Assembly: GCF_029360805.1 (NCBI RefSeq)
Contig: NZ_JARKNC010000001.1
Coordinates: 310,001-374,000 of the forward strand
From: Daejeonella sp. JGW-45
GTDB taxonomy: Bacteria; Bacteroidota; Bacteroidia; Sphingobacteriales; Sphingobacteriaceae
DNA length: 64,000 bases
Direction of reading: 5' to 3'
Shown here: positions 48,142-49,861 of the stretch, piece after piece
How positions within the stretch are numbered: the first letter of the stretch is position 1
Layout of the letters: the number at the start of each line of letters is the position of its first letter
Translations under genes and position numbers: made by a program
The notes under the pieces: model-generated
Databases searched by the model: none
What the model was told of the DNA's origin: nothing
Seen by the model: only the letters and a program-made list of their open reading frames with translations

Positions 48142-48251
48142 GGGATTAGGTATTAGGCGTTAGGTATTAGGCATTAGGTATTAGGTATTAGGCGTTAGGT
48201 ACGGTTGAGAGGCACTGTCAACCGTCAACCGTCAACCCGATAGCTATCGGG
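48142..48251. repeat. GGTATTA heptad array with GTCAACC array and palindrome
   Basis: Eight words GGGATTA-GGTATTA-GGCGTTA-GGTATTA-GGCATTA-GGTATTA-GGTATTA-GGCGTTA (48142-48197). A short linker follows, then three GTCAACC words (48217-48237) and the perfect palindrome CCCGATAGCTATCGGG (48236-48251). The two arrays use different words and are not inverted copies. It is noncoding and just upstream of DUF2461. Confidence 0.8.
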
Positions 48252-48566: not shown

Positions 48567-48874
48567 AAACTTTTAGCAGAGTCTTCATACTTACCGCCTC
48601 TTTCGCTTTCGGTGTACTACCGCCCGGGGCGGTTTCACCATACTTGCGGCACCATTGGGGAATCGAACCCAATAACTGTAATGCACCAGTGTTTGTGTTT
48701 TAAAGCAACAGTAAGCTTTTTGCAAGCCCGCCTGCCGGTAGACAGGTTGACAACTGCACGGGGATCCTCTTTTTTATTTCTCCATAATTGAAAAGTTTTA
48801 AATGTTTAAAAAATCTGTTGTCTGTGTACCGGTACAGTACAAACGTGCTCACAAAACTGAAATTCACCAAATTT

Positions 48875-48931
48875 TGACCTGAAATGACCTGAAATGACCC
48901 CTGTTTGACCCTTGGTTGACCTGCATTGACC
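48875..48931. repeat. Helically phased TGACC repeats
   Basis: TGACC begins at 48875, 48885, 48895, 48906, 48917 and 48927, spacings of 10, 10, 11, 11 and 10 bp. This puts all six on one face of the helix, unlike the 7-bp arrays nearby. It may be a cooperative protein-binding site or a simple repeat; no regulator can be named. Confidence 0.55.
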
Positions 48932-48944
48932 CTGCCACTGATTA

Positions 48945-48986
48945 GTTCTACGTTCTACGTTTTACGTAATACGTTCTACGTTAAAC
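48945..48986. repeat. GTTCTAC heptad array
   Basis: Six words, GTTCTAC-GTTCTAC-GTTTTAC-GTAATAC-GTTCTAC-GTTAAAC. No inverted partner is seen nearby. It is noncoding and not adjacent to a stop codon, unlike most arrays in the window. Confidence 0.75.
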
Positions 48987-49145
48987 CCGGTCAGATCGAA
49001 AACCAGATAAATTGAGTTTTGGGGGAATTCGAAATGTGCTGATAACAGGTTGAAAATTTAAAAGCAATTTCCTGGTTAATCCGGAAATTCATGTTGAGAA
49101 AAGAGGTCAGAGAGAAGTTCTTGAACTCAGGGCGTATTCGAGTCC

Positions 49146-49267
49146 AAAAAATGCCCTTTGTAGGGCTCTTCAAGGGTTCTTATTGGGTAATTTATGCATT
49201 TTTGAACCCGTCAGGCCAATTATCGCCCAACAAGAGCCCTGCCAGAACCCTTCTAAGTCCCTGGCAG
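49146..49267. other. Structured inverted-repeat element, possible ncRNA or mobile remnant
   Basis: The left arm has AGGGCTCTT (49162-49170) then AGGGTTCTTATTGGG (49173-49187). The right arm inverted reads AAGGGTTCT (49252-49244) and AGGGCTCTTGTTGGG (49240-49226). Stems GGGCTCTT/AAGAGCCC and AAGGGTTCT/AGAACCCTT are perfect but cross each other; AAAAATGC/GCATTTTT and CTGCCAG/CTGGCAG add more. It could be a pseudoknotted or switching RNA in the 3' UTR of the oxidase operon, or a palindromic repeat. Confidence 0.45.
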
Positions 49268-49321
49268 GTTACTGCTATATGCCACGCAACTGAGATAGTA
49301 ATGGGTAGAGATAATCCAGGT

Positions 49322-49861
49322 TCAAAACGTATAATAGGGAGAAATCATCAAATAAACAACGACCCCTGTTACCGTTACATATAACCAAATTGGATAGCTC
49401 CAACGTACCAGCCTCTTATGCTTTTCAACCTGCATTTGTAGCCCCTTTTGAAAACTGAACAAAACAAGGGGGAGCACTATAGCGGCCAGGATAATATGTG
49501 TAATAAGTATAAAGTAATAAAACGTTCTGACCGGTCCTTCGCCTCCGTATGTTGTCTTAATTCCGGTGGCATGGAAAATTATATAAGAAACCAGGAATAA
49601 CGATGACAATATAAATGTTGTAATATTAAGCTTTTTGTGTGTCCGGATATCCTTACGTTTGATAAAATACAATGAGACAAGGAGCAATATCGTACACGTT
49701 CCGTTTATTATAGCGTTTAAGCGCGGCAGGAAGAATACCCAGGAAGGTATCGCACTTTTATCCGGAAAAATATCCAGCATTTTACTCTGCAGGATGATAA
49801 TAACCGCAAATACAAAGATTGACACTCCTAATATCAACCGCGAAATAGATCTATCGTTCAT
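49322..49861 (-). CDS. DUF420 membrane protein
   Basis: 179 residues with five or so transmembrane helices and the DUF420 pattern (LPRLNAIINGTCTILL, THKKLNITTFILSS, FHATG, ITHIILAAIVLPLVL). DUF420 genes recur next to SCO and oxidase genes; their role in oxidase biogenesis is presumed. His residues in helices could bind metal or heme. Last gene of the respiratory operon, 16 bp after the SCO gene. Confidence 0.86.
   Translation of the reverse strand: MNDRSISRLILGVSIFVFAVIIILQSKMLDIFPDKSAIPSWVFFLPRLNAIINGTCTILLLVSLYFIKRKDIRTHKKLNITTFILSSLFLVSYIIFHATGIKTTYGGEGPVRTFYYFILITHIILAAIVLPLVLFSFQKGLQMQVEKHKRLVRWSYPIWLYVTVTGVVVYLMISPYYTF

Follow-up and report, generated by a model that had tools for sequence, protein, structure and literature searches.

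An intergenic inverted repeat beside the cytochrome oxidase genes of Daejeonella sp. JGW-45 is one copy of a dispersed family with covarying arms of 11-bp units

The inverted repeat at the oxidase locus

Between a cytochrome oxidase gene cluster of Daejeonella sp. JGW-45 and the next gene on the - strand lies an inverted repeat with two stems that cross, and this leads to the question whether it is a switching RNA of the oxidase operon or a palindromic mobile remnant, the two possibilities raised in a preliminary description of this DNA. In the window, by which we mean the whole stretch of 64,000 nucleotides that was analysed, reading of the sequence confirmed the inverted repeat in this position, the last gene of the putative oxidase cluster, named from its sequence, being at 49322-49861 on the - strand and coding for 179 aa. 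The AGGGYTCTT-type blocks, the TTGGG block, both perfect stems and the pairing of GGGTTC with GAACCC that had been described are all present where they had been placed. The 5' blocks are AGGGCTCTT at 49162-49170, AGGGTTCTT at 49173-49181 and TTGGG at 49183-49187. In stem 1, GGGCTCTT (49163-49170) pairs with AAGAGCCC (49232-49239), in stem 2, AAGGGTTCT (49172-49180) pairs with AGAACCCTT (49244-49252), and by these coordinates the two stems do cross; in the third pairing GGGTTC at 49174-49179 is matched by GAACCC at 49204-49209. Repeat finding in the window gave an additional arm pair, 49162-49186 with 49216-49240, which is 25 nt long and 72% complementary. Absent from the preliminary description were the 11-bp phase of the blocks (49161-49171, 49172-49182, 49183-49193) and the extension of the conserved stretch to the left, to about 49113. 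No tRNA or tmRNA was called in the window. The parts of the element, with the blocks and the loop taken from alignments of the copies described below, are as follows.

49113..49275, + strand: whole element with approximate ends, from the match of covariance model R2 (121.4 bits, model positions 1-162 of 162)
49113..49160, + strand: left block, roughly GTTTTTATACCAAATC..AGTCTAAAAAAGGGGTTTTG in the family and degenerate in the window copy
49161..49193, + strand: 5' arm of three 11-bp units, U3 (49161-49171), U2 (49172-49182) and U1 (49183-49193)
49194..49219, + strand: loop, directional, non-palindromic and alike among copies (..CATTTTTGA....CAGGCCAA..)
49220..49252, + strand: 3' arm, D1 (49220-49230), D2 (49231-49241) and D3 (49242-49252)
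49253..49275, + strand: right block, weakly conserved and with an undefined end (alignments and R2 match)

The 3' arm is complementary to the 5' arm in a nested register (U1.D1, U2.D2) or in a slipped register (U2.D1, U3.D2). When the window copy was folded alone it was only moderately better than its shuffles: z was -1.74 for the + strand RNA (9 of 200 shuffles as good), -2.51 for the - strand RNA (4 of 200) and -1.24 for DNA (22 of 200). Thus, what puts the element above chance is its presence at 11 places in the genome together with the covariation of its arms, rather than the folding of a single copy. A terminator-like hairpin with a T-run lies at 49166-49153 on the - strand, which also carries the oxidase genes upstream of it; such sites were not above shuffles (1 found against a mean of 0.8), and this small hairpin was not seen by eye in the left blocks of other copies.

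A dispersed family of divergent copies

The element was found at 11 places in the genome of the window (G000) and at 44 places altogether. A DNA search of its own genome gave further copies, and a plain DNA search of 150 relatives gave matches in only 3 genomes, its own included, from which it follows that most copies are too diverged for such a search. Covariance model R1, built from six copies (alignment A2), gave matches with E <= 0.1 in 7 of the 20 genomes of the genus. These were at 31 separate places, 11 of which are in G000, when a palindrome that matched on both strands was counted once; the R1 match in the window was at 49139-49265 (120.1 bits). Model R2 was built from 30 copies (alignment A4) with the omission of L110, a weak R1 match (E 0.0946), and has 162 positions. 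Among 201 genomes of the family Sphingobacteriaceae R2 matched 13, that is, 8 of the 20 of Daejeonella and 5 of 181 others, and it added 13 places to the 31. The element occurs in Daejeonella and, sparsely, in further genera of the same family. In a tree of 41 of the 44 copies (L110, L217 and L220 left out) the copies clustered by genome, with 19 changes of genome label compared to 27.3 when the labels were shuffled, and none of 200 shuffles was as low. It had been proposed that many exact dispersed copies would point to a simple repeat; the copies are indeed dispersed but they are divergent and not exact.

Beyond these genomes, no match to the element was found in plasmids and its pattern was absent from viral contigs. 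In a broader contig collection one search pattern found no stretch and a second found 20, of which 3 were in Daejeonella records and the other 17 included many AT-rich records of the Pelagibacter type. We found no description of the element in Daejeonella or Sphingobacteriaceae in a literature search that was thin on subscription journals.

Covariation of the arms and slippage by one unit

In the MAFFT alignment of 30 copies, 86.9% of the cells of the nested stem (U1.D1 and U2.D2, 13 pairs) were paired compared to a mean of 70.3% in shuffles, none of 500 shuffles being as high, and 10 of the 13 pairs had changes on both sides. The covariation of this stem was 0.416 compared to 0.160 when shuffled. 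When the partner was moved by 1-3 columns, pairing fell to 41.0-51.0%, a control that partly favours the nested structure because this was derived from the same alignment. Column shuffles leave some relatedness among the copies in place; when shuffling was done within sequence groups only, the best 5-bp window of the inner stem still had a z of 8.4 (40 of the 44 copies). The 30 copies, on which the figures for the nested stem, stems 1 and 2, the third pairing and the slipped registers are based, come from the first 31 found with R1 and do not include the 13 found with R2, and the unit-register, helix-scan and wobble counts were made on 40 copies, with L110, L214, L217 and L220 omitted. A terminator or attenuator formed by the left block and the loop was also considered; the best such pairing in the helix scan (42-46 with 90-94) had a z of 4.3, with 64% pairing compared to 59%. 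The search with covariance scoring across Sphingobacteriaceae and the examination of the stems for compensatory changes, both suggested in the preliminary description, thus bear out that this is a structured inverted repeat whose stem has undergone compensatory changes.

The units of one arm are also alike, column pairs at a distance of 11 being identical far above expectation and among the top pairs. As a result, a given 3' unit is able to pair with adjacent units of the 5' arm. Among 40 copies, the better partner of D1 was U1 in 18 and U2 in 15, that of D2 was U2 in 19 and U3 in 13, and that of D3 was U3 in 13 and U2 in 21, and U3 was clearly favoured over U1 both by D2 (33 to 4) and by D3 (34 to 3). 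In the 30 copies, the one-unit slip U2.D1 with U3.D2 gave 81.0% pairing and the opposite slip U1.D2 with U2.D3 gave 71.5%, and in 20 of the 30 the nested and the one-unit-slipped registers differed by no more than one pair. Stem 1 is U3.D2, with 84.2% of its cells paired, and stem 2 is U2.D3, with 65.6% paired and weaker covariation. Stems 1 and 2 therefore each correspond to a slip of the register by one 11-bp unit, the one in the opposite direction to the other, and they appear to cross because three similar units per arm let the hairpin slip by a unit. Both are near-complete together in only 2 of 30 copies, the window copy and L088; the crossing stems are not jointly conserved and the idea that they form a pseudoknot switch was rejected for this reason. 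The third pairing can form in the window copy but it finds no support in the family, where it reaches 48.3% and 47 of 500 shuffles were as high. What resembles the layout of a switching RNA in one sequence can thus be the register slip of tandem units.

Position of the copies and their turnover

Overlaps of more than 10 bp with ORFs of at least 130 aa are absent from 41 of the 44 copies, whereas random placement in the same loci gave an overlap in 31.4 of 44, leaving about 12.6 of 44 free; mechanical ORFs and not gene calls were used here. The strands of the neighbouring genes were mixed in the 31 copies compared (8 +-, 8 --, 8 ++, 6 -+ and 1 half-known), and no constant orientation or distance to a gene class was found, with the exception of DUF6266 genes at 6 of the 44 loci. 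These adjoin L090, L098, L100, L110, L211 and L216, which are unrelated places and include one in another genus. DUF6266 was confirmed with Pfam for five of the six neighbours, and genes of this kind number only 7 in G000.

About 790 bp separate the oxidase cluster from the next gene in this genome. The 18 relatives in which that neighbour is the same have a short gap, of 31 to about 106 bp, and no element at this locus; in G013 the neighbour was not recognised. A tie of the element to the oxidase operon does not hold up when 18 relatives have the same gene neighbours without such an insert. The extra DNA of about 790 bp carries several other repeats, and the arrival of the element here was therefore not one clean insertion. 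At L083 the gap is 224 bp, whereas 10 of the 13 relatives compared have 6-68 bp there (25 bp in the closest, G018), and the arrangement is different and uninformative in the other three (G014, G012 and G004). The element is thus missing from the matching gap at two loci, although the junctions could not be aligned, and at L092, the third locus at which an empty site was sought, the context was different, so a base-resolved empty site was not obtained at any of the three. There was no sign of a target-site duplication, shared flank words being 4.95 compared to 4.93 in mismatched flanks (44 copies, with undefined ends). An exact end of the element was not found, and comparison of neighbours and the Y1_Tnp search gave no linked transposase.

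What the element is likely to be

The explanation that we favour, with moderate confidence, is that this is a non-autonomous repeat, dispersed in intergenic DNA and about 130-180 bp long, similar in style to MITE and BOX elements, with arms that are matched by mutation, and not a switch of the oxidase operon. The element is short, non-coding and multicopy (11 copies in G000, 44 in total, 41 of 44 outside ORFs), as MITEs are. Copies may have spread by transposition or another copying process with enzymes encoded elsewhere, replication slippage within a copy would keep the units of one arm alike with a period of 11, and hairpin-templated template switching would copy one arm onto the other, which is our proposed reason why the arms covary while the sequence drifts. 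Slippage and template switching are read from the pattern of the copies and not from single events. Neighbouring genes are probably not affected, or only as by a passive hairpin at their 3' end. Of the two original possibilities, the mobile remnant is thus supported, in the form of a dispersed family, and the pseudoknot switch of the oxidase genes is not.

BOX and ERIC elements are modular, imperfect palindromes of about 100-200 bp in intergenic DNA. Set side by side with them by description only, the present element is alike in size, intergenic site, imperfect palindrome and modularity and differs in its 11-bp unit structure and in the covariation of its arms between copies. By analogy of style the nearest known type is BrickBuilt, a MITE of Porphyromonas gingivalis, which in the available part of its description (PMC4596501) is likewise a Bacteroidota element, intergenic, without a transposase of its own, with leader and tail blocks, with no Rfam match reported and with a moderate copy number (19). 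The direct repeats of BrickBuilt, as described there, are 23 nt long, and its small terminal inverted repeats resemble known IS ends, whereas the Daejeonella element has 11-bp units in inverted arms, is about 160 bp long and has divergent copies across species, and no terminal inverted repeat like that of an IS was apparent in it.

That the element is a functional structured RNA in 3' regions (a processing hairpin, a terminator or an attenuator), with the register slip as a two-state switch and with selection for pairing as the cause of covariation, we consider possible but rather doubtful. The compensatory changes in 10 of 13 nested pairs, the near-equality of two registers in 20 of the 30 copies and the terminator-like site on the - strand all argue for it, but that site is at the level of shuffles. 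A covarying stem, as in cis-regulatory RNAs, was found, but template switching can yield the same; in the available part of PMC8794818 template switching is argued to create and maintain hairpins with compensatory changes. There is no fixed orientation or gene partner, and no Rfam match at gathering scores was found in the window and 12 loci with copies; below threshold there were just weak, unrelated families at chance level. G.T and A.C counts were 8 and 23 in the inner stem, 29 and 19 in U2.D2 and 22 and 28 in U3.D2, and the lack of a consistent G.T excess, whichever strand is read, counts against selection on one RNA strand because such selection would give a preference for G.T. The likeness of units within an arm is, moreover, not needed for pairing. 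L090 of this genome and L100 of G018, which are the same locus beside a DUF6266 gene, also favour an RNA: the element there (111 bp, 94.6% identity) is better conserved than the adjoining genes (83% and 78% alike), immediate flanks do not align, and by sequence this looks like constraint. L089, another site of this genome, is 92% alike to both over the same columns, a closeness that would fit copying too. The picture is mixed in L104/L108 and L105/L221, as far as can be judged from sequence identity, the element blocks being 86-92% and 74-86% alike, respectively, and most neighbouring gene blocks 78-96%. A single well-conserved copy common to two genomes makes an RNA or DNA function possible.

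We think it quite unlikely that the arms are inverted arrays of 11-bp iterons, one helical turn each, bound by a repeat-binding protein, for which plasmid parC/ParR is the model. The strict 11-bp phase, the arms of up to three or more units, the palindromic layout and the intergenic position agree with such a DNA site; however, unit types AGGGCTCTT and TTCGTACCTTC are both present in G000, which one binding protein does not explain, and an all-against-all comparison of neighbours gave no linked candidate gene. A reading as attC was dropped because the order of the boxes is reversed from what we take to be that of attC. Mobilisation as a REP/BIME element by a RAYT (Y1) transposase is highly improbable in our view. 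Like REPs, the element is an interspersed palindrome outside genes, G000 has one Y1_Tnp gene, and Y1_Tnp is present in 7 of the 8 element-bearing and 6 of the 12 element-free genomes of the genus. But G018, given as 99% complete, has 6 copies and no Y1_Tnp match, the Y1 gene of G000 is flanked by palindromes of another sequence, and the element has a low copy number and is four times the 20-40 bp given for REPs in the available part of PMC3733652, its arms alone covering 49161-49252.

Returning to the repeat with arms matched by mutation, it may be, although we hold this to be an unlikely extension, that the family is self-diversifying: every copy would re-invent the 11-bp unit of its arms, and the match between the arms would be kept up by slippage and template switching or else by selection. 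If this were true, the two near-equal registers might serve as two states of an RNA or of a cruciform. When a stem shows compensatory changes, this is commonly regarded as proof of selection on an RNA; in the present case such changes are in a dispersed intergenic repeat with homogenisation of units within arms, and the family is a natural test of whether slippage and template switching alone can yield a strong covariation signal.

Other repeats around the element

Other repeats were seen near several copies. In the window, TGACC repeats with a period of 10-11 bp lie at 48875-48935, and TGACCGAAA arrays are directly to the left of the element in L103, L211, L212 and L222 and, by eye, in L210 and L213; at least three TGACC within 300 bp are uncommon, being present in 8 of 818 segments of this length in the loci. 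The same intergenic stretches carry tandem heptamers, ATTAGGT (8.1 copies, 48145-48201), GTCAACC (3 copies, 48217-48237) and GTTCTAC (5.4 copies, 48945-48982), and at about 48640-48670 on the - strand there is a stretch like a tRNA T-arm, GGTTCGATTCCCCAATGG, without a tRNA call. The single RAYT-like Y1 transposase gene of G000 (L052, contig C1, about 396760) has its own GAAGGGCTTGAA / CCGTGG palindromes nearby, and similar ones are near the element copy in L004. In four relatives (L158, L159, L162 and L165) the palindrome AACGCTGACAGGGTTTAAAACCCTGTCAGCGTT or parts of it, just after an FMN-reductase gene, occupies the place where G000 has the element. Finally, L104 and L108 have a common palindrome, ATTTCGAGGATATCCTCGAAAT, about 45 bp to the right of the element.
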